Program-made: the position numbers and the translations under genes
The notes under the pieces: model-generated
Database searches by the model: none
Seen by the model: only the letters and a program-made list of their open reading frames with translations
Told to the model about the DNA's origin: nothing
Source: Nitrospira sp. ND1
Lineage (GTDB): Bacteria; Nitrospirota; Nitrospiria; Nitrospirales; Nitrospiraceae
Direction of reading: 5' to 3'
Length of the DNA stretch: 64,000 nucleotides
Assembly (NCBI RefSeq): GCF_900170025.1
Contig: NZ_FWEX01000006.1
Span: 3,277,839-3,341,838 of the forward strand
In this document: one piece after another, positions 10,762 through 44,633 of the stretch
How positions within the stretch are numbered: position 1 is the first letter of the stretch
How the letters are laid out: each line of letters begins with the position of its first letter

Positions 10762-11859
10762 ATTCAACAAGGACCCATCACCATCGACATGCGAATGGTG
10801 CAGTCTGCGGGCATCGGGACATACCTGCAAGAACTGGTTCCACGGTTGTTCAAGGTTTTGTCCAAGCCCGCCTTTTGTCTGCTCGGTCAGGCTGACCTCC
10901 TCCGCGGATTCAGCTGGGCTCAGCATCCGAATATCAGGATCATCGATTGCCGGGCGGGGATTTATTCACTACGCGAGCAGGTTGAGCTCCCGATGCGGAT
11001 TCCCCGCGATACCACCCTCTATTGGTCCCCTCACTACAATATTCCATTGTTGTACCGAGGGCCTCTATTGGTGACGGTCCACGACACATTTCACCTGGCG
11101 ATGCCGCAATTCGTGGACGGGTGGCATCGACGGGCCTATGCGCGCCTGATGTTTCGAGCCGTAAGGGCCAAGGCGGCCGCCATTGTGTGTGTCTCTCAAT
11201 TTGCCAGGGACCAACTCCTGCAGTTCGTTCCCGAGGGACGGCAGGAAGTCATCGTGGTGCATAACGGGGTGGATGTCTCATGGTTCACGCCGGTGCCTGG
11301 CGGGCCGCCCCACGGGAAACCCTACGTACTCTTCGTCGGAAGCGTCAAGCCGCACAAGAACCTGTCCCGTCTGCTGGAGGCATTTGCCCTGGTGCAGAAG
11401 CACATTCCGCATGACCTGGTGATCATCGGTCGCCGGGAGGGCCTCATCACCGGCGACGCGTCGGCGATGGCGATGGCCTCCGCCATGGGCGATCGAGTGA
11501 TCTGTGTCGGCGAGTTGGAGCATGGAGATGAATTGCTCCGTCGCTACTATCGGTACGCGGATGTTCTGGTGATGCCCTCGCTTTATGAGAGTTTCGGGCT
11601 TCCGGCCTTGGAGGCGCTGGCGTCCGGCTGTCCGGTCATCGTCTCCCGCGTCGCGGGGTTACCCGAGGTGTATGGAGAAGGCGCCATGTACTGTGATCCG
11701 TATGACCCGTCCGATATTGCGGAGCGCATCCGACTGATGGTGAGTGATCGCGGGGTGCGAGAACAGTACCTCACTGCCGGGCAGGCTGTGGCCACGCAGT
11801 ACGATTGGGACACAACAGTAGAAAAGCTCGCTGCCGTCGTGTGCGCCTCCCGGCTGTGA
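10762..11859 (+). CDS. Glycosyltransferase family 4 (probable AUU start)
   Basis: Retaining GT4 enzyme. Donor-site motifs: KPYVLFVGSVKPHKNLSRLL, LVMPSLYESFGLPALEALAS and GCPVIVSRVAGLPEVYG (E-x7-E intact); CDPYDPSDIAERI follows. The first ATG (10789) would cut off strand 1 of the N-terminal Rossmann domain: the family motif 'I.IDaR......GIG.Y' is read in frame as ITIDMRMVQSAGIGTYLQEL, beginning four codons upstream. Between the in-frame stop at 10741 and that ATG there is no ATG/GTG/TTG. ATT at 10762 lies 8 nt after AGGAG (10749-10753), ideal spacing, and gives 365 residues. I therefore extend the gene to ATT; if only the ATG is used the product is 356 residues. The gene itself is certain, the start is inference. 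Confidence 0.8.
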   Translation: MQQGPITIDMRMVQSAGIGTYLQELVPRLFKVLSKPAFCLLGQADLLRGFSWAQHPNIRIIDCRAGIYSLREQVELPMRIPRDTTLYWSPHYNIPLLYRGPLLVTVHDTFHLAMPQFVDGWHRRAYARLMFRAVRAKAAAIVCVSQFARDQLLQFVPEGRQEVIVVHNGVDVSWFTPVPGGPPHGKPYVLFVGSVKPHKNLSRLLEAFALVQKHIPHDLVIIGRREGLITGDASAMAMASAMGDRVICVGELEHGDELLRRYYRYADVLVMPSLYESFGLPALEALASGCPVIVSRVAGLPEVYGEGAMYCDPYDPSDIAERIRLMVSDRGVREQYLTAGQAVATQYDWDTTVEKLAAVVCASRL

Positions 11860-12000
11860 GGCGCCGATGGTGAGGCATGCCGGTGAGCTTGAACTGAACC
11901 CCATCGACCCGATATCCCTGAGGTTTCCAATGCCGGCGGGAGGACGTTCGTTCAGGGCGCACATCGACGATCTGTGGCCTGCTCGCTCGCGTGTGTGGAC

Positions 12001-13233
12001 ATGAAAAAACTTCATCTCGTGGTTCTCAGCGATTTTGGATACGTGAACGGCGGCAACGCTGCCGTGGCGTTGGCGAGTGCCAGGGGGCTCGCTCGTCGCG
12101 GTCATGCCGTGACCCTGTTGTCCGCGGTCGGGGCGACGACGCCCAGCGATGATCCCGATGGGGTTCGATTGGTTTCAACCGATCAACAGGAGATTCTGAC
12201 GGATTCGAACCGAATGCGAGCCATTCTTCAAGGGACGTGGAACGTCACGGCGGCCCGGATGCTTCGCGCGCTTCTTCGAGATCTCGATCCCGCCTGTACC
12301 GTGGTGCATCTCCATAGCTGGACCCAAGCCCTGTCCTCCAGTGTGGTGCGCGCCGCGTTGGCGGTAGGGGTTCGGGTTGTGTACACTATGCACGATTACT
12401 TTTCTCTGTGCCCCAACGGGACCTTCTTCAATCATCAACAGAACGAGATCTGCCGGCTCCGGCCGATGTCGCTCTCCTGTATCGCCAGCCACTGCGACAA
12501 ACGCAGCTATTCGCATAAGCTCTGGCGAATCCTGCGACAGGCGGTGCAGGCCCACCGGGGAGGGATCCCCAATCGAATTCTTGATTTCATTGCCGTCTCG
12601 CCGTTCAGTCACGCGATCCTGGCGCCGGGTCTTCCCGCGGGGGCTCGCGTGTACCACGTCCCCAGTCCGATCGAGGTCTCACGGGACGTACCGGCGCGGG
12701 TTGCGGCAAACAGGGCGTTTGTGATGGTCGGAAAGATCACACAGGGAAAGGGCGCCATTGTGTTCGCCAAGGCCGCCCGCGCGTTGGGATGTGACGCCCT
12801 GTTCGTGGGCGACGGTCCCTGCGCTCAGGAAGTGGTGCAGGTGTATCCCCGTGCCCGAGTGACGGGATGGGTTTCCAGGGAAAAGGTGACGGAGTATCTG
12901 AAAACCGCCCGGGTGCTGGTGTTTCCCTCGTTATGGTACGAGACCGAGGGGTTGAGTGTGATTGAGGCCGCGGCGTTGGGAGTGCCGGCGATTGTATCCG
13001 GCACGTCGGCCGCGCGCATGTCCATTGCGGACGGGGTGACGGGGTTGTGTTTTGCAGGCGCCGACGAGGCGGACTTGATTCGAGCGATGCGGACACTCTC
13101 CGCCGACGATGCGCTCGTCGGGGCCATGGGGCAAGCCGCCCATCAGCGGTATTGGGAGAATCCCCGAACCTTAGACAGGCACGTGTCCGAGCTCGAAGCG
13201 GTCTATGAGCAGGCCTTGAGGGGACGGATATGA
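12001..13233 (+). CDS. Glycosyltransferase family 4
   Basis: 410 residues from ATG 12001 (MKKLHLVVLSDFGYVNGG, a typical first strand and glycine loop). A GTG nine codons earlier (11974) is also in frame but adds only a short non-conserved stretch. Middle region VVYTMHDYFSLCPNGTFFN and the cysteines around 'CRLRPMSLSCIASHCDKRSY' are characteristic of a GT4 subgroup with a Cys-rich acceptor loop, related in style to the gene at 5273. Donor half: AFVMVGKITQGKGAIVFAKA, VFPSLWYETEGLSVIEAAAL and GVPAIVSGTSAARMSIADGV. Its end overlaps the next start by 4 bp (ATGA). It should add one sugar of the repeat unit; specificity unknown. Confidence 0.85.
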   Translation: MKKLHLVVLSDFGYVNGGNAAVALASARGLARRGHAVTLLSAVGATTPSDDPDGVRLVSTDQQEILTDSNRMRAILQGTWNVTAARMLRALLRDLDPACTVVHLHSWTQALSSSVVRAALAVGVRVVYTMHDYFSLCPNGTFFNHQQNEICRLRPMSLSCIASHCDKRSYSHKLWRILRQAVQAHRGGIPNRILDFIAVSPFSHAILAPGLPAGARVYHVPSPIEVSRDVPARVAANRAFVMVGKITQGKGAIVFAKAARALGCDALFVGDGPCAQEVVQVYPRARVTGWVSREKVTEYLKTARVLVFPSLWYETEGLSVIEAAALGVPAIVSGTSAARMSIADGVTGLCFAGADEADLIRAMRTLSADDALVGAMGQAAHQRYWENPRTLDRHVSELEAVYEQALRGRI

Positions 13234-15950
13234 CGGTCGCGGGCGTCTCATCTCCCGCTCATGCGGGCTTGGTCAATCGCCTGGGCTTGTGGATTCTCGC
13301 GATGCTCCTGCTCTCGCCGGCGGTGTTCAAAGTTCGTGTGATGGGTGGCCTCGTCGTCCATCCGTTCGTGCTGGCGCTGATCGTCGCATGGGGTTGGGTG
13401 TTGTATGCGAGTGCCGATACGTTTTCTCGACGGAAACGCGGGTGGTACTCTCCCGAGTGGCAGACGTGGAACACCCCGCTGATTCTGCTGGGGCTCTCGA
13501 TCGCCGGATTGGCGCTGAGTCTCGGCATCAATTCCATTCGACTGGGATCGCTCCAATCGACCGGCTGGCTGCTCTTGCTGAAATGGGGGCTCTATCTGGC
13601 CCCGCTTCCGCTGACGGCGCTGCTGGCTCTTAGGACCGGCTTTCAGGTCGTCAGACTGGTCAGCTACCTGATTCCCGCGGTCGCCCTTCTCACGTTGCTC
13701 TATTCGTGCTTTCGAATGGGGCAGGCCCTCGATGGCCGGTATATCAATGCCTACGTCGATGCGTCCTCCACATTTTTTGCGATGGGCATGTTTGCGGAAG
13801 TTCTGTCGCCCGAGGGCCTGGTCGTACGCTCCGACACCGGTAGTCACGGGGCCTACGGCATGTACCTGGCTTTCGCATCGCTGTTCAGTCTTTGTTTGGC
13901 CTTGTTTCAAGGATGGCACGGCATAGTGAATCGCGGGTACGCGGTCCTGCAAGGGCTGATCCTTGCTCCCTTGTGCTTCATGGGCATTCTCTGGACCGGG
14001 TCGCGATCCAGCCTTGTCCTACTGCTTGGGGCCATCCTGATGTTGGGCCTCCTGACTATGGTCAATCCCGGAGGGCTGCTCGCGCGGTCCCGCCGCTTGG
14101 CGTTTGCCGGCCTGCTGTTCCTGATGCCGCTTGGTCTATTGGGACTGATTCACGTGCTTGAGGTGAAGGTCCCCACACTTGATCGGGTGCGGGACACACT
14201 GACCGCTTCCATGCAACTCGAACAAACCGTCCGCGGAGAACTGTCTCCCGTGGACGAGCGGCACGCGTCGACTCAGCGGGCGGTGCAGAACGTTCAGACG
14301 CGTGTCTGGCTCTGGGGCCAATCGTTCCGGTATCTTCTGCGGCATCCGTTCACCGTGGTGACCGGCATCGGGTATGACCGCCGCCGTTTCGTCGAAGAAG
14401 TGGTCGGGATCCCCTTCGAAGGTTTCAACTTCAACTACCAGACGGCTCATAACCTGTATCTCGATGTCCTGATCAAGGGCGGGATCGGACCGCTGCTGCC
14501 GCTCGTCGCCGCCTGTGTCTGGTTGCTGTGGGTGGGCATCAAGAGCGTCACGATTCCCGTGCGTGAGCCGAGTGCCGTCGTGCGTATCGGCGTCGGATGG
14601 ATCGCCTTGGCCTGTTGGCCGCCGCTATTATTGGTCAGCCTGACCTGTGAGGAGTTGTTGACGGACAACTTGATGCTCCATTGGACCGCCTTGTTCGGCC
14701 TCCTTCTGGGATTGTGCGGGACGGCGCTGGCGGAATGGTTGCCGAATCGTATCGTACACATGACGGCGACTGCCGGGGTGGGCGGCGGGCCGGCCTACCT
14801 GACGGCGCTGGCGGACCACCAACTCGGGTCCCGCATGCAGGTGCGCGTATTCTGTTCGGACGAGAAGCCCTATGTCGAGATCTGGCGCCGGATGCCGTTG
14901 GACCTGTCCGTGCTGCCGATGCGACGCCCCAATGCGCGCTCGGTCTGGCAGTTGCTGAAAGAGTTGTTGCGCGCGCCGGCGCCGATTCATGCGCATGGTC
15001 GCGGGGCCGCGTTTTTTGCCATCTGGGTCAAGATTCTTGTCCGCGTGCCGGTGATCTATACGCCGCACGGGCCGCACTATGCCGACAACCAGGGATGGCG
15101 CTACCTGTCTGGCTGGCTGTTCGAGTTGTGCTGTCGCCTCTTGCTGGATGCCATCGTGTATGTGTCTCCGGGGGAGCGGGAGACCGCTCGTCGGCATCGG
15201 CTGCCGACGTCGAACTCCCTTGTGGTGTTGTCGGGACTGGTTCAAGAAAACGCGCAGTCGATTCATTCCGGTGATACGGGGAAGAGCTTACGTGCAGAAC
15301 TCACGATCCCGGACGGGAGATTCCTCATCGGATGGATCGGCCGGTTTCACCGCCAGAAGGGCCTGGATATTCTCCTTGAGTCCGTGCGGATCGTGTCGAC
15401 GCAAGTACCCGAGGCCACGTGGGCGGTGATCGGGGAGGGCAGTGAAGAGGACCGACGACGGTATCGATCGATCCTGGATACCCTTCCACAGCCGGATCGG
15501 GTGCTGTTCCTCGGCGGGCGGCCGGATGCGTTTGCCTTGATGAGAGCCTTCGATCTCTTCGTCTCGACCTCTCGCTGGGAAGGGCTTCCGCTCGTCTTGC
15601 TGGAGGCGATGGAGCAGGGCATTCCTATCGTGGCCAGTGATGTGATCGGGAACCGTGATGTGCTGCAGGGGTGGGGCATGCTCTTCAATGCCAACGACCC
15701 CAAGGCGGCGGGCGAGGCGCAAATTCGTCTGGCGCTCGATGCCCCGTTGCGGGCGCGGCTGACGAAGCTGGGTCGGGAGGTCAGGCGGTCACGATTCGCG
15801 CTGAGTCGAATGTTGCGGGAAATGGATCAGGCGTATTATGAAATTCTAGGAGCCTCGATCTTCCCGAACGGTCAGCCTTCCGGATCCGTTGTCGCAACGC
15901 CGGCAGACGCGTCCACCCGGTGGTCCGCCGGGGTGTCCTTTCCGGGGTAA
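13230..15950 (+). CDS. Fused O-antigen ligase/polymerase-like (Wzy) membrane domain + GT4 glycosyltransferase
   Basis: 906 residues, unusually long. Residues about 15-510 are polytopic (ten or more hydrophobic helices such as LWILAMLLLSPAVFKV, LILAPLCFMGILWTGSRSSL, WIALACWPPLLLVSLTCEEL). They contain a long periplasmic-type loop (about 310-410) with YQTAHNLYLDVLIKGG, the 'h.HN.yl......G..g' signature of O-antigen ligases and polymerases. Residues about 510-880 are a complete GT4 enzyme: IVHMTATAGVGGGPAYLTAL, IHAHGRGAAF, VIYTPHGPHYAD, FLIGWIGRFHRQKGLDILLE, FDLFVSTSRWEGLPLVLLEA and IPIVASDVIGNRDVL. No stop, frameshift or spacing anomaly separates the halves, so this is one polypeptide. The likely job is repeat-unit polymerisation coupled to sugar addition. 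Start ATG overlaps the previous gene (ATGA). Confidence 0.85.
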   Translation: MTVAGVSSPAHAGLVNRLGLWILAMLLLSPAVFKVRVMGGLVVHPFVLALIVAWGWVLYASADTFSRRKRGWYSPEWQTWNTPLILLGLSIAGLALSLGINSIRLGSLQSTGWLLLLKWGLYLAPLPLTALLALRTGFQVVRLVSYLIPAVALLTLLYSCFRMGQALDGRYINAYVDASSTFFAMGMFAEVLSPEGLVVRSDTGSHGAYGMYLAFASLFSLCLALFQGWHGIVNRGYAVLQGLILAPLCFMGILWTGSRSSLVLLLGAILMLGLLTMVNPGGLLARSRRLAFAGLLFLMPLGLLGLIHVLEVKVPTLDRVRDTLTASMQLEQTVRGELSPVDERHASTQRAVQNVQTRVWLWGQSFRYLLRHPFTVVTGIGYDRRRFVEEVVGIPFEGFNFNYQTAHNLYLDVLIKGGIGPLLPLVAACVWLLWVGIKSVTIPVREPSAVVRIGVGWIALACWPPLLLVSLTCEELLTDNLMLHWTALFGLLLGLCGTALAEWLPNRIVHMTATAGVGGGPAYLTALADHQLGSRMQVRVFCSDEKPYVEIWRRMPLDLSVLPMRRPNARSVWQLLKELLRAPAPIHAHGRGAAFFAIWVKILVRVPVIYTPHGPHYADNQGWRYLSGWLFELCCRLLLDAIVYVSPGERETARRHRLPTSNSLVVLSGLVQENAQSIHSGDTGKSLRAELTIPDGRFLIGWIGRFHRQKGLDILLESVRIVSTQVPEATWAVIGEGSEEDRRRYRSILDTLPQPDRVLFLGGRPDAFALMRAFDLFVSTSRWEGLPLVLLEAMEQGIPIVASDVIGNRDVLQGWGMLFNANDPKAAGEAQIRLALDAPLRARLTKLGREVRRSRFALSRMLREMDQAYYEILGASIFPNGQPSGSVVATPADASTRWSAGVSFPG

Positions 15951-16036: not shown

Positions 16037-17404
16037 GTGAGACGAACCGGGCAGGCAGACATTCCCGAGGCCGCAACTGCCCGGGAGAGAGTAGCAGAGG
16101 CCGGTGCCCCTGCCATACCCGTCAGCCGCGCCGCGGGTCCATTGATCCTATCGGACGTCCTGCTGCAGGGGATGCGCTATCTGCTGCTGCTCTATCTGGG
16201 ATACCGTTCACTGACCTATGCGGGCGCGTTTTTGTTGGGGTCCGCCCTGGGTGCGGTGCTGGGGGGGATGGTCGATTTTGGAATCAACCAGTATTGGCTG
16301 AGACTGACCGGCCCGGACCTGTGCCTGAATCAGCGGACCTTCTCTCGTGTGTTGCGTGGCAAGGTGCTGGCGTGCCTGGGCGGACTTCTCTGTATCGGTG
16401 GAGGGATCGCGTTGGGTGCCTGGAGTCCCTCACTACCGATGGCGATGGTCGTCGGCATCGGGCTTGCGGCGACGCAGGTGCTGGCCGAAACCTGTGAGGC
16501 CGCAGGGTTGTCGCTGCACCGGTATCAGATGGTGGCGCTTTTCCGGGTGTTGATGAGTGTGGGGATGTATGGTGTGCCTCTTGTGTTGGCTTGGACCCTG
16601 CAGCAGGAAGCGAATCATGCGGGTCTCGACCTGGCCCTGCTCGCAGGACTGATGATTGGAGTGCTTCTGTGCGGTCTGTATGCGTGGAGGATGATGGCGT
16701 TGCTTCCGGGAGGGACGTACGGGAACCGCGGGTATCGCCGTGCTTGGTGGGAGGCTCGCTGGCTCGGCTTGAACCAGATCGCCATCGTGCTAGATGTCCG
16801 GGCTCCGTTGCTCATTCTTGGTTTCATGCTGGGAGCGTCGGCGGTGGGGCTCTATGGTCTGGTACAACGGACGACCGCTGTGGTGGAATTGGCGTGGGCC
16901 TCACTCTCTCGACTGCTGTTGAGATCCTATGCCGAGATGGTCGGAGAGAAGGGGTCGGATCAGATCAAGGCCCGTGTGCGCATGGCCGGCCTCGTCACGG
17001 TCGCCGTCATGGCCATCGCCTCAGCCGGCCTGTGGAGCGCCATCATCTTTTATGGGAGATTCGCGGAGGTTTCGACGGAGACCGTCGTGGCGCTCTCTCT
17101 CTTGCAGTGGGCGGTCGTGGCCATCGGGTTCAGTTCCGTCAAGCGTCCGTTTGTGTCAGGGCTGATCGCGCTGTTCCAAGAGCGGCTCGTGTGTCGGGTC
17201 AATGTGACCGCCGCGCTGATCGGACTGCTGCTGGTTCCGCTGTGCATACGATATTGGGGTATCTGGGGGCCGGTCATGGCCTGGATTGTGTTGGAGGTCG
17301 CGGCCTGTCTGGTGCTGGTGCTGTTGTTTTTCTACGTATCCGGTCAAGCAAGACCCGCGCTGGTGACGAGGGCCTCCGGCGGAATAGGTGGCTATACGAA
17401 ATGA
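16037..17404 (+). CDS. Oligosaccharide flippase, Wzx/MATE-like (polysaccharide biosynthesis protein)
   Basis: 455 residues with about 12-14 hydrophobic helices after a hydrophilic 40-residue start (GTG 16037). Early segment LLLYLGYRSLTYAGAFLLGS is followed by GMVDFGINQYWLRL, the acidic-glycine turn of Wzx-type exporters ('...D.Gi....'). Mid-protein ARWLGLNQIAIVLDVRAPLL and LGASAVGLYGLVQRTTAVVE match the second half of the flippase fold ('lG...vG.y......'). It should flip the undecaprenyl-diphosphate-linked repeat unit to the periplasm, where the polymerase-like domain encoded just upstream (13230) would act. Flippase and polymerase adjacency supports a Wzx/Wzy pathway. Confidence 0.8.
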   Translation: MRRTGQADIPEAATARERVAEAGAPAIPVSRAAGPLILSDVLLQGMRYLLLLYLGYRSLTYAGAFLLGSALGAVLGGMVDFGINQYWLRLTGPDLCLNQRTFSRVLRGKVLACLGGLLCIGGGIALGAWSPSLPMAMVVGIGLAATQVLAETCEAAGLSLHRYQMVALFRVLMSVGMYGVPLVLAWTLQQEANHAGLDLALLAGLMIGVLLCGLYAWRMMALLPGGTYGNRGYRRAWWEARWLGLNQIAIVLDVRAPLLILGFMLGASAVGLYGLVQRTTAVVELAWASLSRLLLRSYAEMVGEKGSDQIKARVRMAGLVTVAVMAIASAGLWSAIIFYGRFAEVSTETVVALSLLQWAVVAIGFSSVKRPFVSGLIALFQERLVCRVNVTAALIGLLLVPLCIRYWGIWGPVMAWIVLEVAACLVLVLLFFYVSGQARPALVTRASGGIGGYTK

Positions 17405-17418
17405 AATCGCGTCGCTGA

Positions 17419-18603
17419 ATGAAGTCGTTACGAGTTGCGATTGTCCACGATTGGCTCACCGGGATGCGGGGCGGCGAGCGCTGCCTGGAGGCGTTCTGCG
17501 AGCTGTTCCCCGATGCCGATCTCTACACCCTGCTGCACATCAAGGGGACGGTGTCGCCCACGATCGAGCGTCACCGGATCACGACCAGTTTCGTTCAATC
17601 CTTCCCGCTGGCCGCGCGGTACTATCGGTATTATTTGCCCGTATTTCCTGCTGCGATCGAGCATGTTCGCCTCCCGTCCTACGACCTGGTCTTAAGTTCG
17701 AGCCATTGTGTGGCCAAGGGCATTCGCCCGCCGGCGGGAGCGAAACATCTCTGCTACATTCATGCGCCCATGCGGTATGTGTGGGATCAGTTCGACAACT
17801 ATGCCGGCGGCGGGCGATCGGGAGTCGTGGCGAGATTGGGCATGGAACTGTTCCGGAAGCGTCTGCAGGCCTGGGATGTGGCCTCCGCCGCTCGGGTGGA
17901 TCAATTCGTGGCCAATTCTCGGAACATCGCCGGGAAGGTGCAACGGTATTACGACCGGCCGGCGGCCGTGCTGCATCCCCCGGTCGATTGGCAGACGTTT
18001 CAAGCCGCGGAACAATCGGAGGACTTCTATTTCATGGTCACGGCCTTTGCGCCGTATAAACGGGTTGATCTGGCCATTCAGGCGTGTAATGTTATGAAAC
18101 GACGACTGAAGATCATCGGCAAGGGGCAAGAGGAGGCGCGGTTGCGCAAGCTCGCCGGCCCGACGGTCGAATTTCTGGGCTGGCAGCCGGACGAGGTGGT
18201 CAGGGATCACTATGCGCGCTGTCGGGCGTTGCTCTTTCCAGGCGAGGAAGATTTTGGTATCGTCCCATTGGAAGCGATGGCCTGCGGCAAGCCTGTGCTT
18301 GCCTTCGGGCGCGGGGGAGCGCTGGAGACCGTGGTGCCGTTGACGGGTGTCGGATCCGTCGAGGGCACACCTGTGCGAGGGGGAACCGATTCTGTGACCG
18401 GTGCGGGGAACGTTGCCACGGGAGTGTTTTTCTTCACTCAGTCGGTCGAATCCGTTGTCGAGGCGATGGAGTCCTTCGAGCGTCGCCGGACGGAGTTTGA
18501 TCCGCATGCCATTCGTGACCACGTGGCCGCCTTCGACCGCCGGCTGTTCAAGGAGCGCATGAAAGCCTTCGCGATGGGGGCGTTGACCGGTACGGCTTCA
18601 TAG
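17419..18603 (+). CDS. Glycosyltransferase family 4 (WbaZ-type)
   Basis: 394 residues. Starts with the very typical RVAIVHDWLTGMRGGERCLE; then DLYTLLHIKG, LPSYDLVLSSSHCVAKGIRP and CYIHAPMRYVWDQFDNYAG, a signature of the WbaZ group of mannosyl/galactosyl transferases. Donor site: FYFMVTAFAPYKRVDLAIQA, CRALLFPGEEDFGIVPLEA and CGKPVLAFGRGGALETV. It is placed directly before the initiating transferase (8 bp gap), so it may add an early sugar. The manC and manB genes downstream make GDP-mannose a plausible donor, but this is inference. Confidence 0.88.
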   Translation: MKSLRVAIVHDWLTGMRGGERCLEAFCELFPDADLYTLLHIKGTVSPTIERHRITTSFVQSFPLAARYYRYYLPVFPAAIEHVRLPSYDLVLSSSHCVAKGIRPPAGAKHLCYIHAPMRYVWDQFDNYAGGGRSGVVARLGMELFRKRLQAWDVASAARVDQFVANSRNIAGKVQRYYDRPAAVLHPPVDWQTFQAAEQSEDFYFMVTAFAPYKRVDLAIQACNVMKRRLKIIGKGQEEARLRKLAGPTVEFLGWQPDEVVRDHYARCRALLFPGEEDFGIVPLEAMACGKPVLAFGRGGALETVVPLTGVGSVEGTPVRGGTDSVTGAGNVATGVFFFTQSVESVVEAMESFERRRTEFDPHAIRDHVAAFDRRLFKERMKAFAMGALTGTAS

Positions 18604-18610
18604 AGGGAGC

Positions 18611-20011
18611 ATGCTCAGACGCCACTCCCAATTTCTCAAAAGTCTGCTGTTTTGTATCGATCTCGGGCTGATCTGCGCCTGCTGGGTCGGAGCCTACTAC
18701 CTTCGTTTTTCAGAGATCGTGGAACCTGCCACCAAGGGCATTCCTCCTCTCCGGATCTATCTGCTGTTGTTGGTGCCGATCATCGCAGTCTGGGGCATGT
18801 CGTTCCAGGCCTTCGACCTCTACCGCCCGCGACGGATGGGCACGCGGTTGTCGGAGTTTCTCGACGTGGCGAAAGCCAATACCCTCTCCGTGCTGATTCT
18901 GGTGGCATTGACCTTTTTCTTCCGGCAGTACGAATATTCCCGACTGGTGCTCCTCTATTTCTGGCTGTTGAACCTCATCACCCTGGGTTTTTCGCGGGTG
19001 CTGTTCCGGGAGGCGCTTCGGTTCCTGCGTCGGCACGGATACAATCAACGCCATGCGCTGGTCATCGGCACCAGCCGGCTGGGACGACGGGTGGTGGACG
19101 CGCTCGCTCAGCATCCGGAGCTGGGGGTGAAAGTGCATGGGTTCTTGAGCGCCGATTCCCGGAAGGTGGGTGAGCGGATCAACGGGGTGCCGGTGATCGG
19201 GCGGTACGATGACCTGCAGGAACGTGTTCAGTCAGGTGTCGATATCGTCTTTGTCTGCCTGCCTCCGGAGGACGAGCAGTGGGCTGAAAAAATGTTTACC
19301 TGTTTGGCCACGACGATGGTCGAAGTGAAGGCCTTGCCCGCGATGTGCGAATTTGTGAGCCTGCGCGCGGAGGCCGAGATGTTCGAGGGCCTTCCGCTCA
19401 TCACGTTGCAGGGATCGCCGTTGTACGGGTGGAATCTGGTCATCAAACGGGTGTTGGATGTGGTCGGCGCATCGGCGGCGCTGGTGGTATTCTCCCCGGT
19501 GTTATGCGCGATCGCGGCCTTGGTGAAACTGACTTCGCCCGGCCCGGTCTTTTTCCGTCAACTCCGTATGGGATTGGACGGGCAGGCGTTCGAAATGTTG
19601 AAATTCCGTTCCATGAAGCTCGATGCGGAGTCGGAAACCGGCCCGGTCTGGACGCAACCCAATGACGATCGCCGGACACCGATCGGCGCGTTTCTGCGCC
19701 GAACCAGCTTGGATGAGTTGCCGCAATTCTGGAACGTGCTGCGCGGGGAGATGAGCATCGTCGGTCCCAGGCCCGAACGGCCCGAGTTCATCGCCCGGTT
19801 TCGAGAAACACTTCCGCAGTACATGCTGCGGCACAAGATGAAAGCCGGGATTACCGGGTGGGCGCAGATCAACGGATGGCGTGGCAACACGTCACTGGAA
19901 CGGCGGATCGAGCACGACCTGTACTACATTGAACACTGGTCGATCTGGTTCGACTTCAAAATCATGCTGCTCACGGTCTGGCGAGGGTTTATCCACCGGC
20001 ATGCGTATTGA
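18611..20011 (+). CDS. wcaJ: Undecaprenyl-phosphate glucose (sugar) phosphotransferase, WcaJ family
   Basis: 466 residues. Four N-terminal hydrophobic helices (about 12-125) are followed by a CoA-binding-like/Rossmann domain (HALVIGTSRLGRRVVDAL ... VDIVFVCLP), a fifth membrane helix (DVVGASAALVVFSPVLCAIA, about 280-300) and the cytoplasmic bacterial sugar transferase domain. That domain shows KLTSPGPVFFRQLRMGLDG, FEMLKFRSMKLDAE, RRTSLDELPQFWNVLRGEMS and IVGPRPERPEF, then KAGITGWAQINGWRG. These contain the conserved catalytic Asp-Glu and Pro-Arg-Pro elements. It moves a hexose-1-phosphate, usually glucose, from UDP-sugar to undecaprenyl phosphate, the first step of repeat-unit assembly, and is the last gene of the EPS operon here. 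Confidence 0.93.
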   Translation: MLRRHSQFLKSLLFCIDLGLICACWVGAYYLRFSEIVEPATKGIPPLRIYLLLLVPIIAVWGMSFQAFDLYRPRRMGTRLSEFLDVAKANTLSVLILVALTFFFRQYEYSRLVLLYFWLLNLITLGFSRVLFREALRFLRRHGYNQRHALVIGTSRLGRRVVDALAQHPELGVKVHGFLSADSRKVGERINGVPVIGRYDDLQERVQSGVDIVFVCLPPEDEQWAEKMFTCLATTMVEVKALPAMCEFVSLRAEAEMFEGLPLITLQGSPLYGWNLVIKRVLDVVGASAALVVFSPVLCAIAALVKLTSPGPVFFRQLRMGLDGQAFEMLKFRSMKLDAESETGPVWTQPNDDRRTPIGAFLRRTSLDELPQFWNVLRGEMSIVGPRPERPEFIARFRETLPQYMLRHKMKAGITGWAQINGWRGNTSLERRIEHDLYYIEHWSIWFDFKIMLLTVWRGFIHRHAY

Positions 20012-35610: not shown

Positions 35611-38600
35611 TCACACGGATGGGATGGTCACCTCCACTGAATGCTCACCCCGGTCATCCACAAGAGAGATCGCTTGGTCGGCCTGCTGAATACCATCGAC
35701 CGTGACCGACATCGCCTGGTGCTCCGTGCCTGATTGCCGCACCGTGATGTGATACATGGTCTCCCTGAATCGGTAGTGGACCTTGAAGGTCTTCCAATCC
35801 AGAGGCAGGCAAGGAACGAACCGTAACCGGTTGTGCTCCAGTCTCACCCCCAAGAGTGACTCGACGATCAGCCGGTACATCCATCCGGCCGAGCCGGTGT
35901 ACCAGGTCCACCCGCCACGGCCTGTGTGGGGTGGGACCGCATAGACATCTGCCGCTACCACGTAGGGTTCGACTTTATACCGGTTGATATCCCCGGGTGA
36001 CTGGGCATGGTTCACCGGGTTGATCATGCGAAACAGTTCCCAGGCGCGTTCGCGGTCGCCCAGTGCGGCAAAGGCCATGGTGGCCCAGAGCGCGCCATGG
36101 GTGTACTGTCCTCCATTCTCTCTGACTCCCGGCACGTAGCCCTTGATGTAGCCGGGATTCAATGCGGACTTGTCGAACGGCGGGTCCAGCAGTTGGACGA
36201 GGGCATCGTCTCGCCGAACCAGCCGTCGATAGACTTCCTCCATGCCCGATCGTGAACGGGCCGAATCTCCCGCGCCCGACAGGACAGACCAGCTTTGGGG
36301 GATGGAATCGATCTGGCATTCGTCATTGGTGGCCGATCCGAGCGGTGTGCCGTCGTCGAAGTAGGCGCGACGGTACCACTCTCCGTCCCAGCCCTGCTGT
36401 TCGATCCGGTGTTGCAACTGCGCGGCTTCCGTCCGGCAGCGCTCCGCGAACGTCGCGTCACCTTTGGTGTCCGCCACCTCAGCAAACCGCATGAGGACGT
36501 CATAGAGGAAGAATCCCAGCCAGATGCTTTCTCCCTGGCCGCGATCGCCGACCATATTCATCCCGTCGTTCCAATCACCTGAACCGATGAGCGGCAGACC
36601 GTGTACACCCTTCGTGAGCCCCTTCAGGATGGCCCGGACACAGTGGTCGTAGAGACTGCCTGATTGCTCCGACCGGCCGGGAAGATCGTAGTAGGAATCT
36701 TCGTCGGCATTGATCGGGCGACCTTCGATGAACTGGATCGGGGTGTCCAGCACGCCGGTGTCCCCGGTTGTCATCACGTAGCGACTGGTGACATAGGGAA
36801 GCCAGAGAAAGTCATCGGAGCAGCGCGTGCGCACGCCCCGGTTTGATGGTGGATGCCACCAATGCTGCACGTCTCCTTCCTTGAACTGACGGCCGGCGCA
36901 CAGCAGTAGCTGTTCTCTCGCGAGATGCGGTTTCGCGTGGACCAAGGCCATCACGTCTTGCAACTGATCGCGGAATCCAAACGCGCCTCCCGATTGATAG
37001 TAGCCGCTGCGCGCCCAAAGACGGCAGGCGATCGTTTGATACAGCAGCCAGCCATTGGCAAGCACATTGAGCGACTGATCGGGGGTCTCCACATGGACCG
37101 CTCCCAACGTATGTGTCCAATGATGCCAAACGGTTTCCAGCGCCGCACGGCGTGCCGTCGCCCCTCTGAAGCGACGAACGAGCTGACGGGCATCCTCAGT
37201 ATCTTTTCCAACTCCCAACCGGAAGGTACAGTCGCGCTCTTGACCGACGGCGAGGTCGAAGGGCAACTGAATCGCGCCACACGGATCCAGAGCGGCCCCC
37301 ACTTTCCCGGACAGTCGTGACCGACTCATCGACGCAGGATTGCGCAGGGTGCCGTTCCGTCCGAGAAATTCGGTTCGATCGCCGGTCATGCTTCGAGTGC
37401 CCTCGTCCACATCAAAGAAAGCAATCCGCCCGGGGAAATCCGTGTTGTAGGCATTTCGCGCGAACAGCGCCCCGGTGGCCGGGTCTATTTCACTGATCAC
37501 ATGCATGACCGATTTGGGCCGCAGATCGCCCAGCACCCATTCCACATAGCCGGTCGCCGACAGGCGTCGTGGTCGGCCCGATTCGTTGCGCAGCTTCATC
37601 ACCGTAAATTTTACGGAGGCATCCAACGCTACATACACCCAGACCTCGGAGCGAATGCCGCCTTCCGTATGCTCAAAGCAGCTGTACCCGAATCCATGCC
37701 GACTGACATAGGGGCTCGTACCCCTGCAAGGCATCGGCATCGGCGACCAGACGTGGCCGCTCTCCTCATCGCGGAGATAGAAGGCTTCTCCGCTCGAATC
37801 GGTCACCGGATCGTTGTGCCAGGGTGTGAGACGGAACTCATGCGCGTTTTCGCTCCAGGTGTAAGCGAGGCCGTTCTCTGAGACGACGGTGCCGAAATTC
37901 GGGTTCGTCAGCACATTGACCCAGGGGGCAGGCGTTACCTGTTCGGCTGTCGTGGTGATGACGTACTCGCGGCCATCGGAAGAAAACCCGCCGAGACCGT
38001 TATAGAACAGCAGATCCGTTCGGGGCTCGATGGTGGCCGGCGGATCGGCGCGATGGGTACGCGTCGGTTTGAAGCGGTAGGCCGGGGCCGCGGGGGAGGC
38101 GAGGCGTGTAATCTGGTCCGCCAGCGTTCCGCGTCGATCGGTGAGGATTACGCGGGCCACCGATTGCTGCAGCAGGCGGTCTTCGACCGACATCTGTTCC
38201 GCCGTTCGCACGAAGATACCACCCGGTCGATCCATCACATTGGCCTCGACTCCGGCCGAGATCAGCCCCATGATTTGATCGTGCAACACCTGACGATAGC
38301 CGGCGTGATCTTCGTTCCAAATCACGAGGTCCACGGCCAGCCCCTTCAGTCGCCAATAGGCATGGGCCTGGACCATTTGACGGACCAGATCGATGTTGGA
38401 CGGGTCGCCGATCTGGAGCAGTACGATCGGCAGGTCCCCCGAAATCGCATAGCCCCAGAGGCCCGATTGTCCGCGGCGGTTTTTGCTCAGCACGGCCGCT
38501 TCTGCCCTGAGTGAGGCATTCGCATAGAGGATCGAGCCGGCCAGTCTGCCATACAATTGCGCATCCGCTTCGGTCGTATTGAGCTGACGCAGCACGACCT

Positions 38601-41600
38601 GGCTATGGGTCCAGGCCAGCTCAAACACCCGATCGGCGAGACGCCGGTCCTGATACTTGTCGACCAGGCGCAGGCACAGGTCGCGGGTCTCTCCGATGCC
38701 CGACACCAGATCCACCGTGACCGACTCTTCAGGTTCGAGGACGATCGGACAACGGATGGACACAATGGGGTCCAGCACGGAGCCCTGACTTCCTGAAAGC
38801 GGGCCGGAATGGTCCAGAGCCTGCGGAGCGGCGAGGGTGCGCCCCCGGCCGATGAACTGCAGGCGATCCGTTTCGTAGGAAATCTCCCCGCTGTGAGGGC
38901 CACGTACCGCCATGAGGTGGAATGCCCAGGGGGCATGTTCATCCTGCGAACGGCCACGGCGCGTGGAGAGAATGGCCTGACGTTCGCGGATGATTTCCGT
39001 CTGGACGAAGAGATTGCTGAAGGCCGGATGGAGGGCATCGGCCGCCGGCAGCGCCAGCACGACCTCCGCATAACTGGTGAGGTCGATCGTGCGTTTCGTG
39101 CCGGAACAGTTGGTGAGACGGATCCGCCGTAATTCGATGTCGTCTTCCGGCGACACGACGATTTCGGCATGTGTCTCGATCTCGTGATCGCGGCGACGAA
39201 ACTCGGCGCGCCCTTCGGAAAAGATGACTTCGTAGGTCTTGGACGGTTTCAGTGTCGGCTGATAGGCCGTGGACCAGAATTCCCCGCTCTCTACGTCGCG
39301 GAGATAACAAAACGTCCCCCAGTTGTCGCAGGTGCTGTCTTCACGCCAACGCGTGACGGCCAGGTCCTTCCATCGGCTGGACCCGCCTCCCGCGTTCGTC
39401 ACCATCACGTGGTATCGACCGTTCGACAGGAGGAGCACGTCCGGCACCGGAGTGTTCGCGGTCGTCAGGACGCGAACCGGCGTGTCTGCCGTACCGGACG
39501 TCGTGCGCAAATCCGACAGCTCGGTGCTGTGGGCATAGAAGGCTGTGGCCTTGGGAATCCGTTCTTGGAGCACCAGCGTGCTGGCCTGAAACAGCGGATC
39601 GGCTTCGAAGCGCTTCTGCATCGGGCGGTCGAGGAGCAGATAGGCCAAGGAGAGGAAACTCATCCCCACATGGTGGGCCATGTAGGAGCGAATGATGACA
39701 CGCGATTGTCCGCGGGGAAGACGCGAGGGCGTGTAATCGATCGCTTCGTACAAGCCGTATGGTCCATCGGCGCCTTCGGCGGTGAGTCGCTGGAGATTCA
39801 GACAAGCCTCTTCCGGCGCGACCATCAGGGCGAGGGAGGTGGCGTAGGGTGCAATGACCAATTCCTCGCCCAGGCCTCGCTTCAGTCCAAGGCCGGGCAC
39901 ACCGAAGGCCCGATACTGATAGTTCAACTGCGCGTCGACCATGTTGTAGCCGGATTCCGAGACACCCCAGGGAATATCTCGCTCCCGGCCGTATTCGATC
40001 TGTCGCTTCACCGCTGCGCGGTAGGTCTGATCCAACAGCGTCTGCTGGTATGTCGGCATGACGAGCAGCGGCATCAGGTATTCGAACATCGATCCGCTCC
40101 AGGACAGGAGAATCGGCTCTCCTCCCGTCGTCGTGAGCAGACGGCCGAGGGCGAACCAGCTCTCCTGCGGCAGTTGGCCCTGCGCAATCGCCACGAAGCT
40201 GCACAATCGCGCTTCGGAGGCCAGGAGGTCGTAGTAACTCGCGTCCCGTCGTCGTTCCGCGACGTTGTACCCGATGGAGAGGAGGAACCGCGTGTCGTCG
40301 AACAGGAAGTCGTACTCCATCTGGGCAAATTGATTCGCTTGCCGGGCCAAGCGGTCGAGCGAGGCCATGCGTTGTTCGGCCAGTCGGCTGGCCGCGTTCA
40401 GGTGCCGTCGAAGTTCGATCAGCCAGGTCCGCTCCGTGCCGGATGCGTCTGGTCCAAGTCGCGTGTCAATCGCCGGCAGCCATTCGCCTTCCAGTCTGGT
40501 CAGCGTCCGGAGCGTGGGGATCTGATCCAATTCTGGAAACAGACTGAGGATCTTATCGGTGGCGGCAAGACCGATCCAGGGAGCCAGAATCATCAGCTCG
40601 GCGACCGTGTCACGGCACTGTCTCGCGAAAGCATGGGCCCATCGGTGCGCCTCCGCGTTGGAGGCGGGATCGAGATGGGCGGTGACTTCATCCACCTGTT
40701 TGGTGAGCAGGGTCAAGGTGTGGTGGATTTGCCTGAGTGTGGTCGGCCTGTTGTCACAGGCTGCGGCCAGGTTTTTCTGAAGTGCGTCAACCTGAGACGT
40801 CGGAGTTTCGAGCGCCTCGCTCAGCAGCGCGAGGGTATCGCGGAGTCCTTCAAAGGTGCGCTCAGCGAGGATCTTGTCTTCCGGCAGGCTAAGGAGCCCC
40901 GAGTGCAGGGTCATGACATGCCCCGCGAGGTTTCCACTGTCTACCGACGAAATGTACATGGGGAGCAGCGGTTTCAACGTCTGGGTGTCGTACCAATTGT
41001 AGAAATGGCCTCGAAACCGCTCCAAGGTTGCCATGCTGTCGAAGGTATGAGCGGTGCGTTCGATCAGCTGTCCTGCCGACAGGTAACCGAAGTCGTAGGC
41101 GGAGAGATTGGCCAACAGCGCCAACCCTATATTCGTCGGTGACGTTCGATGCGCCACCTTCGGAGCCGGATGTTCCTGAAAATTGTCGGGCGGGAGCCAG
41201 TGATCGTCCAGGTTGACATAGGTCTCGAAAAAGGCCCAGGTCTTGCGTGCCATCTTCCGGAGAAACATTGCCTGGTCGGCCGTGAGTCTGGCCTCGCGTC
41301 GAGCGAGCGGTCTGCTGATCCACCAGGTGAACAGGGGAGACAGCGCCCATATGCTGAGAACCGGCGCCGCAATCAGGAGCGCCTCCGCGCGCGTCTGCAT
41401 CAGAATGATTGTGATGATCAGGGCCATGGCCGGACCAATCCACATCGATCGGTAGGAACCAATCAGATCCGTCCTGCTCCTGTCCGTTGCGCCTGACGGG
41501 TTCCATTCCAATAAGCCCGTGCGATTGAACCAAACACGCCCGGCGGTCCGTACGATCGCGTCCAGGCTGTAGAAGCTTTCGTAAGGCAGGCACGTGAGCG

Positions 41601-44310
41601 TGAGGAGCGCCTGGGTCAGCTGTTGTGTCATGCCCCGTGCGGTTGCGGTGAGGTGCTGGCTCATCCGCATATCCTCGGGCTTGCGGCACAGATCGACGAC
41701 GGCGCCCAGTAACGGCGCGATCAGGAACAGGCTGAGCGTGGCGAGGGTCCAGAGCCAGACAGGGGAAAGCAGAGTCCATCCCACTACGAATAAGGAGGTC
41801 AGCGTAGCGGGGACGAGGCTGCGTCGCAGGTTGTCGAAAATTTTCCAACGCGACAGGGTGGACAGTGGATTGCTGCGGGTACGTCCGTTCGGTCCCGGCA
41901 CGCGGGGGAAGGCCCAGCGCGCAATCTGCCAATCTCCGCGGATCCAGCGATAACGCCGGACCACGTCCGTGTTGTAGCGGGCAGGATATTCTTCGTAGAG
42001 CTGCACATCGCTCAGGAGCCCGGCGCGGGCATAGGAGCCTTCAAGCAAGTCGTGGCTGAGGATGCGATTCTCCGGGAAGCGATCGCTGAGCGCCTGCTCG
42101 AAGGCATCGACCTCATAGATCCCCTTGCCGATGAAGGACCCTTCTCCAAACAGGTCCTGATACACGTCCGACACGGCGCGTGTGTAGGGATCGATGCCGG
42201 GTTCGCCGGCGTTGAGCCGGGCGTAACGCGAGCGGTTGGCGCCGGGGAGGCTGACGGCCACCCGAGGTTGCAGAATCCCGTACCCCGCAGTCACGCGCTG
42301 TGCCGCAGGATCGTACTGCGGACGATTGAGCGGATGGGCCATGGCGGCCACGAATTGCCGCGCGGAATCGCGAGGCAACTGGGTATCCGTATCGAGCGTG
42401 ATCACATATTTCACCGTGGACAGGATGTCCGGTTGTCCGACGATCGTGGAAAACCGATCCGTCGACCCGCCGCGCAGGAGCCCGTTCAAGTCCGCCAGTT
42501 TGCCTCGCTTCCGCTCGTATCCCATCCAGAGCCGCTCATGGGCATTCCAGCGACGCGGGCGATGGAAGAGAAAAAACGTGTCGCCATCTTCGCCTGCATA
42601 TTTGGCGTTCAGCGCATCGATGCCTGCTCCGGCCGCCAGCACCAACTGATCGTCACCTGCCACCGTCTCTTGGTCGGCATCCTGGAAATCCGTGAGCAGG
42701 GCAAAGTGTAGATGACTGCCCCGGTTGGCGAGGAATCGGACCTCGAGGGCCTCAAGGAGGTCGTCGATACCCCGGACATCTTGGAGGAGTGTGGGAATCA
42801 CAACCAGCGTTCGTAACGCCGGGGGAAGGCCATCGGAAAAATCCATTCGCGGGAGGGGGGACGGGGTCACCAGCGCCGTGGCGATCCAGTTTACCAGCGT
42901 CACCGCCAGCTGACTGGCAGCCAAGGCCGACACGAATCCCAGCAGGGCAAGCAGCCATCCATTCCAACCTGCTGCAATGGCGAGAGCCAGGAAACATCCA
43001 GTGAATGTGGCTGTGAGGAACAGAATGGAGCCGAGATAGATTGGTACGCTGCTGGATCCGGTCCATCTCCGGAGCCTGTCGAAGGCAGAACGGCGCAGGC
43101 TCACGGCCTGTTCCAATTGCGTCTGTCCGTTGTCGATGAGATAGAAGCCGACGTGGGCGGTGCGGTGGTACGGTCCCTCTGCAGCGGCCCCTGTCTGCGC
43201 GAGCAGGATCGCTTGGCGAGCGACGTCACCTTCCGACAGGGGGCTACTCTTTGCGAGTTTCTCCACGGCATGGCGATACCGGTCACGAGTGGCAAAATCC
43301 ATCTGCCCGTACACGCCGGCCGGATCTTCATGGAACGTCTGCTCCACCAGGCTCTGCGCTTCGACAAACTCGCGCCAGTCCATCGCCGCCAGGAACCGGA
43401 GACTGCCGATGCTGTTGCTCATGGAGACTTGATCGATCGCCTGTTGTTGCGTTTCCGACTGCACCAGTTGCTCAATCGTGAGGCCGGACTCGGACAGGCG
43501 CTGTTCGATCCAGGTGAGCGGTAAGGCCAACGCCGCGCTCTGTCCTTGCAGACGGCGGGCGAGCTCTGCCACGAAGGCGCTCACCATGGGCGGATTGGAC
43601 CGCGCCATGTCCGCGATCACCAGGATGAGACTCTTGGGGTCCTTTTCAGCCGTCTCCATCATTTGGCCGGCCCATTCGTGGGCGCGATTGCGATCCACTC
43701 GGTCGCTTGCGATGCGGGCGCCGGCGCGTCGCAGGTTTTCGATCAATGCGAGGCGAATCATGATAGGGATGGCCCACAACTCGCCGAGCTTCAGGGCCGT
43801 GACCGTCTGATAGGCCGCGACGAAACCGCTGAGACTTTCCGGGTCCACCCGTCCGTCGCCATGCGAGATGATTTCAAGCGCGATGTCGTAGACCCTGGGC
43901 AAGCCGGCCGATGGACCGTTGCCCAGCCGGGGCAGTTCGCGGCTATACCCTTTGGGCAGGTGCCGCCTGGCCAGGCGAATCTGTTCTTCGATCAGGTAGA
44001 AGTTATCGAGCAGCCATTCTCCGGCCGGTGTGATGCGTCGACTTCCCTTCACCGCCTCGGCCACCAGATTCCGCACATCCAGCAGGACGGCTTCATTCTC
44101 AGCCAGTCGAGCGAGCAGCGGGTCGGGCTCGTGCTCGGCACTGACGGCATGCAACCCCGCGAGGGTCTTGCCATGCTGTTGCATTTGCTCGGCACTGAAG
44201 AGCTCCGATCGCAACGGCAGCTCATCACCGGCATAGGGCATGGTCGCCGGTTGTCCGCTCAGGCGTCCGGTCAATTGACGCCAGCTTGCAAGAATATCTG
44301 TGCGGCTCAT
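35611..44310 (-). CDS. ndvB: Cyclic beta-1,2-glucan synthase (GT84-glycoamylase-GH94), NdvB/Cgs type
   Basis: 2899 residues from ATG 44310. The longer frame to 44457 runs into an intergenic inverted repeat and encodes low-complexity Arg/Pro sequence, so the internal ATG is preferred. The N-terminal cytosolic region (about 1-415) is followed by membrane helices near 420-476, 833-873 and 953-997. Between them is the GT84 glycosyltransferase with [18 protein letters not shown] (Asp-x-Asp near 638), [14 protein letters not shown] and [13 protein letters not shown] (near 787). A glycoamylase-like domain (about 1010-1600; [40 protein letters not shown]) is next, then two GH94 beta-sandwich domains (about 1650-1900, 2080-2350). 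The GH94 phosphorylase catalytic domain carries [16 protein letters not shown] (general acid Asp, about 2580). The enzyme initiates, elongates, trims and cyclises a periplasmic osmoregulated glucan at the inner membrane. No transporter (NdvA/Cgt) is adjacent. Confidence 0.93.
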
Positions 44311-44439
44311 CTTCAAATTCGAGATTCCCTTCGATCGAGGTCGCGGAGGTGGTCTGCGGGATACAGGCAAAGGACCGGCCCAAGCCGGACGGTCCTTGCG
44401 AATGAAGGTACGGAAGCGGGCACAAGGAGGCAGTAGAGC

Positions 44440-44633
44440 CTCACCCGCACGACTCATAACGGCTTCTGCTGCAATCGCCGATCTGTCGCTGCGACAGACC
44501 TTCGTCCTGCGGACTCGCCCCTCACCCGCTCACCGCACTGCGCGAGCGGGCCCGTGGTCTTGGGACTCCGTACGCCTGGCGCAGTGCCGCTCAGTGACTT
44601 TGCGGCAGACCGTCATGAATCATGCGGGCCGAG
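44440..44633. repeat. MITE/REP-like element, copy 1 (imperfect terminal inverted repeats)
   Basis: Left end (44440-44467) and right end (44608-44633) are imperfect inverted arms sharing CCCGCA, TCAT and ACGG words. The subterminal CTTCTGCTGCAATCGCC (44463-44479) is nearly identical to CTTCTACTGCAATCGCC in the element at 49265-49476. A central hairpin CCCGCTC/GAGCGGG (44525-44550 area) occupies the same relative place as the 49325 hairpin. No coding capacity. Confidence 0.6.

Follow-up and report, generated by a model that had tools for sequence, protein, structure and literature searches.

In Wzy-dependent polysaccharide pathways, the enzymes that assemble the repeat unit, flip it across the membrane, and polymerize it are thought to cooperate, and physical coupling between them is hard to show. 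The closest described systems include the O-antigen ligase WaaL and the Brucella enzyme WadA. O-antigen ligase is described as carrying two arginines and a histidine on the outer side of the membrane (PMC10920833). WadA joins a cytosolic sugar transferase and a WaaL-type periplasmic domain with 12 transmembrane (TM) helices in one polypeptide (PMC9938171, PMC10920833). It was presented as the first O-antigen ligase with two functions, and likewise as the first bifunctional enzyme that spans a membrane and has sites on either side of it (PMC9938171), and as a bimodular GT25-GT121 protein of five genera (PMC10920833). We analyzed 64,000 nucleotides of Nitrospira sp. ND1 (contig NZ_FWEX01000006.1, positions 3,277,839 to 3,341,838; hereafter the window), which lie in a surface-polysaccharide region. 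At 13230-15950 on the plus strand, the window holds a gene for a 906-residue protein in which a WaaL/Wzy-type membrane module is fused to a complete glycosyltransferase (GT) of the GT4 type.

The fusion resembles WadA in combining such parts in one chain, but it does not have the WadA architecture. WadA has its GT25 domain first (aa 1-266) and the ligase second, whereas here the membrane module comes first and is followed by a GT4 enzyme of the GT-B fold. A first-pass annotation of the window, made from the sequence alone, had stated that these functions are normally on separate polypeptides. That statement needs qualifying, since WadA is a published fusion of such a kind (PMC9938171, PMC10920833); searches of titles, abstracts, and text passages in an open-access library listed no Wzy-GT fusion other than WadA and no Wzy-GT4 fusion. 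A bifunctional GT-ligase is therefore a known kind of protein, and what is new here is the reversed order, the GT4 in place of GT25, and probably a polymerase in place of the ligase.

The fused gene and its two domains

The 906-codon frame begins with ATG and runs without interruption. Its start overlaps the stop codon of an upstream GT4-type gene (11974-13233, plus strand) within the four bases ATGA at 13230-13233, so the two genes are probably co-translated. The membrane module (aa 1-503, 13230-14738) contains a Pfam Wzy_C match at aa 248-419 (E 1.8e-11, 44.5 bits against a cut-off of 31.7). The module, from about aa 9 to aa 503, passes directly into the GT4 enzyme at about aa 505 (aa 505-876, 14742-15857), in which Pfam Glyco_transf_4 (aa 517-662) and Glycos_transf_1 (aa 687-850, E 2e-27) both matched above cut-off.

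Full-length fused homologues are present in 11 of the 29 genomes of the genus, our genome included. The gene is a genuine and conserved natural fusion, and its occurrence in 11 separate genomes rules out a frameshift or assembly artefact. It is very improbable that two separate proteins arise from this frame, by an internal start or by processing, and that there is no functional fusion. An in-frame ATG is found at codon 511 in 7 of the 11 homologues, as such a scenario would allow. However, the codon is CTC, CTG, GTC, or CTG in the other four, no obvious ribosome-binding site precedes the ATG, and the junction between the last helix and the GT is well conserved in the 11 homologues. An internal start is thus ruled out as a general explanation. 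The G+C contents of the two halves (60.6 and 62.8%) resemble those of the neighbors and of the window (59.9%), which speaks against a recent foreign origin of one half.

AlphaFold models were obtained for the whole protein (mean predicted local distance difference test score, pLDDT, 74.5; predicted template modeling score, pTM, 0.75) and for aa 1-545 alone (mean pLDDT 74.0, pTM 0.77); the whole-protein fold search gave GT-B entries only among the matches listed. Both models have 12 long membrane helices, and the predicted TM helices lie at aa 9-27, 47-67, 81-105, 110-136, 138-167, 206-225, 235-256, 259-278, 286-309, 419-441, 447-469, and 479-503; the GT begins at about residue 505 of the whole-protein model. 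The modeled membrane half matched WaaL (7tpg) over nearly its whole length (Z 20.6, root-mean-square deviation 5.1 Å, 388 of 403 residues aligned, model residues 12-502), with SEDS proteins far behind at Z 10-13 (FtsW 13.2, RodA 10-12). WaaL 7tpg shares with the modeled fusion its whole-chain fold and a long, predicted periplasmic loop, and the conserved loop histidine and outer-face arginines may correspond as well; in contrast, the two are only 15% identical, 7tpg carries no fused GT, and the fusion lies in a cluster for a variable polymer. A search of PDB sequences with the membrane half returned no WaaL at E 10 or better (the best match, at 0.26, was unrelated), so that the case for kinship with WaaL is made by Pfam and by comparing folds. 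The WaaL catalytic residues could not be mapped onto the fusion through two other sequences, L002 or L004, and a local alignment of L004 set its own MHN histidine opposite H407. The modeled GT half matched HepE (4xsu) at Z 35.7 over 349 aligned residues (2.7 Å). HepE and other GT4 enzymes share the GT-B fold of this half but are free-standing.

Twelve helices would put both ends of the protein on the same side of the membrane. Lysines and arginines number 11-17 in the predicted inner loops compared to 5-7 in the short outer loops in all 11 proteins, counted with the long loop excluded. Together, the helix count and this charge distribution predict that the GT half lies in the cytosol, where the first-pass annotation had expected it, and that the loop with the conserved histidine (aa 310-418, 14157-14483; R358, R384, and H407, the last within QTAHNLYLD) is periplasmic. 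R200, R259, and H407 all fall on the predicted outer side. The annotation's description of a polytopic Wzy/WaaL-like module with an HN-containing loop followed by a full GT4 enzyme, in one open frame, agrees with these results, and neither a frameshift nor a conserved internal start, either of which it had named beforehand as refuting, was found between the halves. Nor does the predicted topology set the GT half in the periplasm, the other outcome that it had named as refuting.

Conservation of the fusion in Nitrospira and its relatives

The search for the same fusion in related genomes, which the annotation had proposed, thus succeeded within the genus. The other ten fused homologues are 98, 97, 84, 56, 56, 55, 55, 54, 54, and 51% identical to the window protein, and Wzy_C (at E ≤ 0.001), Glyco_transf_4, and Glycos_transf_1 were all matched in 11 of 11. 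The set of 61 genomes compared was completed by 32 from elsewhere in the family and order, none of which had a full-length fused homologue. A search with the membrane half and the junction, run over 395 genomes of the phylum, gave full-length matches in 10 of them, all of this genus, and weak partial matches alone in 11 more (E 3e-6 to 4e-4). A scan of a contig collection found 6 relatives covering most or all of the query; distant fusions elsewhere would escape that scan, which used two short peptide patterns.

The architecture is rare in the phylum. A 61-genome phylum sample, in which ours was the sole genome with the fusion, contained 109 Wzy_C matches over cut-off, and the only frame longer than 773 codons was that of the window. 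We scanned the 16 sample frames of at least 600 codons outside our own genome and three weak matches from the 395-genome search, each from its first start codon, after which two were shorter than 600 aa. None of these 19 Wzy_C frames had a GT domain; most had TPR repeats and one had Wzy_C_2, and TPR repeats were also present in L001, a long Wzy_C frame of our own genome. Such proteins share the Pfam Wzy_C core with the fusion, but their extension is not a GT.

Presumed catalytic-type residues are invariant in all 11 homologues: R200, R259, R358, R384, and H407 in the membrane half, by analogy with WaaL, and R705, K710, E784, and E792 in the GT half, by their roles in GT4 enzymes. E784 and E792 presumably form the motif named EX7E in this half and in HepE and other GT4 enzymes. 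For all 7 pairs computed, the ratio of nonsynonymous to synonymous substitution rates (dN/dS) of the membrane half lay between 0.107 and 0.219 and that of the GT half between 0.105 and 0.173, values indicative of similar purifying selection on both halves. The pairwise identities of the two halves correlate at 0.93, a figure that is descriptive because the sequences are related. One exception is the homologue L016 of genome G003, whose GT half shares 63% identity with the window protein and whose membrane half shares 47%; divergence of the halves is therefore not always parallel. Recombination or uneven divergence within the fused gene may have occurred in L016.

These data bear on whether the GT half matters to the enzyme. 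A relative in genome G017 appears without it: a contig (L062, G017:C26) starts inside a homologue of the membrane half (at 3-380), the matched pieces of which are 40-60% identical. This homologue ends in a stop codon where the fusion junction would be, and no GT follows within the 5.2 kb of the contig. An unfused form therefore probably exists, although this incomplete sequence may instead represent a broken gene. The GT half might then be catalytically unimportant, or a regulatory or scaffold domain that keeps its fold. However, the four presumed catalytic residues are invariant in 11 of 11 homologues and dN/dS is equally low in the two halves, and we consider this explanation improbable.

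No close free-standing relative of the GT half was seen, the GT-only matches listed being 24-36% identical. A plasmid search gave 422 matching records, none of which reached 80% query coverage. The best plasmid match to the GT half, L106:1996-4110 on the DP4 plasmid of Nitratidesulfovibrio vulgaris, is a two-part protein whose N-terminal part resembles a GT2 enzyme by eye. GT4 enzymes of such a type may thus occur fused elsewhere.

Polymerase or ligase

The gene 86 bp downstream of the fusion (16037-17404, plus strand) encodes a polytopic protein with 11 hydrophobic segments. It is followed by a GT4-type glycosyltransferase gene that is conserved beside WcaJ throughout the genus comparison (17419-18603, plus strand) and by a gene for a WcaJ-type undecaprenyl-phosphate glucose phosphotransferase, an initiating enzyme (18611-20011, plus strand; TIGR03023, 509.5 bits against a cut-off of 410.75). 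Of the 29 genomes of the genus, 13 have the 16037-17404 gene. They comprise the 11 fusion genomes and, in addition, G006, in which a contig end cuts the gene, and G023, in which a 33-residue remnant is left. The first-pass annotation had stated that a flippase gene follows directly. A polytopic gene does follow, but its product has no flippase family match, and its label rests on position, hydrophobicity, and co-occurrence with the fusion. A candidate Wzx flippase is a plausible reading of it.

Between alleles, the fusion is 51-58% and the next gene 43-54% identical, compared to 87-100% for WcaJ in the same genomes. A variable fusion and next gene beside a constant WcaJ are as expected for the polymerase and flippase of a variable polymer. 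In G023, on one contig (L093, reverse complement), gene order is kept and the neighbors share 93-97% identity, but the upstream GT gene, the fusion, and nearly all of the 16037-17404 homologue are gone; the gap sits between the orthologues of window 10789-11859 and 17419-18603. The last ~100 bp of the flippase-like gene are still in place, a deletion scar of the three-gene unit. The same three genes are absent at the same place, without a scar, in G008 and G013. Other genomes without the fusion carry different genes at the locus, one of which, in G024 (L095:593-2437), encodes an ABC exporter that combines membrane and ATPase domains, and G027 has the fusion and the 16037-17404 homologue amid otherwise different upstream genes.

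A second Wzy_C protein, of 459 aa, is encoded 33 kb upstream, downstream of genes for heptosyltransferase-domain proteins. Matches of at least 59% identity to it occur in 26 of the 29 genomes of the genus, among them every one of the 11 fusion genomes. The remaining three are G005, with only a 31% match, and G006 and G012, without a match. Because this protein, near core-lipopolysaccharide genes, is nearly constant in the genus, the fusion is likelier to be a polymerase than a ligase. The 459-aa protein suits the role of the constant ligase better than the fusion does, and a variable gene beside a flippase-like gene suits a polymerase. WadA works with an O-antigen that Wzm/Wzt exports, whereas the cluster of the fusion includes a starter of the WcaJ type and a flippase-like gene; for the fusion, polymerization is likelier than ligation.

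The alternative is a ligase that works like WadA. Its GT4 half, in the cytosol, would attach the last core or adaptor sugar, and its membrane half would ligate polymer, on the periplasmic side, to the lipid A-core that bears this sugar. The published WadA enzyme, with its 12 TM helices, works in this way (PMC9938171), and the best fold match of the membrane half is a ligase. However, many relatives lack the fusion or have it deleted, and it belongs to a variable cluster that has a WcaJ-type starter, whereas a core-linked ligase step should be constant, and the near-constant second Wzy_C protein sits near the heptosyltransferase-domain genes. We regard a WadA-like ligase as possible but unlikely.

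On balance we lean toward an inner-membrane enzyme with two functions, belonging to a surface-polysaccharide pathway of the Wzx/Wzy type and composed of the polymerase and a GT that finishes the repeat unit. Several points weigh against it besides the ligase fold match. Neither Pfam Wzy_C nor the WaaL fold distinguishes a ligase from a polymerase, and the nearby second Wzy_C protein does not prove a division of labor, since in Brucella a waaL homologue is present that is not the main ligase (PMC9938171). The models rest on 11 sequences, and aa 397-407, including the histidine, have pLDDT below 50 in the full model. The 16037-17404 protein gave no flippase family match in Pfam, NCBIfam, or PDB sequences, and no profile similarity was detectable between it and the Pfam-supported flippase encoded upstream in the genome.

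In the polymerase reading, the WcaJ-type enzyme would start the repeat unit on undecaprenyl phosphate and the GTs of the cluster would extend it. The cytosolic GT4 domain of the fusion would act late in this assembly and most likely add the non-reducing terminal sugar, which would later serve as the polymerase acceptor. A flippase, probably the 16037-17404 product, would carry the unit across the membrane, and the WaaL-fold domain of the same polypeptide would join units in the periplasm. By analogy with WaaL as described (PMC10920833), R200 and R259 may bind pyrophosphate and H407 may activate the acceptor.

More tentatively, one chain could both complete the lipid-linked unit in the cytosol and polymerize it in the periplasm, the WadA principle having been reached independently for polymerization of the Wzy type, with the fusion and flippase-like pair forming one swappable specificity unit. 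If a cytosolic GT is joined covalently to a Wzy/WaaL-type module, the link would point to the GT working beside the polymerase, and a GT so placed probably adds the sugar that the polymerase recognizes. The fusion offers a single protein for testing coupling across the membrane. If this is confirmed, the WadA principle would have arisen at least twice, from different parts.

Surrounding genes

Around the fusion, the cluster holds several GT4 enzymes, a methyltransferase, the polytopic 16037-17404 gene, the WcaJ-type starter, and mannose-1-phosphate guanylyltransferase and phosphomannomutase-type genes. The upstream GT gene, whose stop overlaps the fusion start, is absent together with the fusion in G023. 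Farther upstream in the genome are genes for two heptosyltransferase-domain proteins, a sulfatase-fold protein, the 459-aa Wzy_C protein, and the Pfam-supported flippase. Elsewhere in the window, a very long open reading frame of 2948 aa occupies 35611-44457 on the minus strand.

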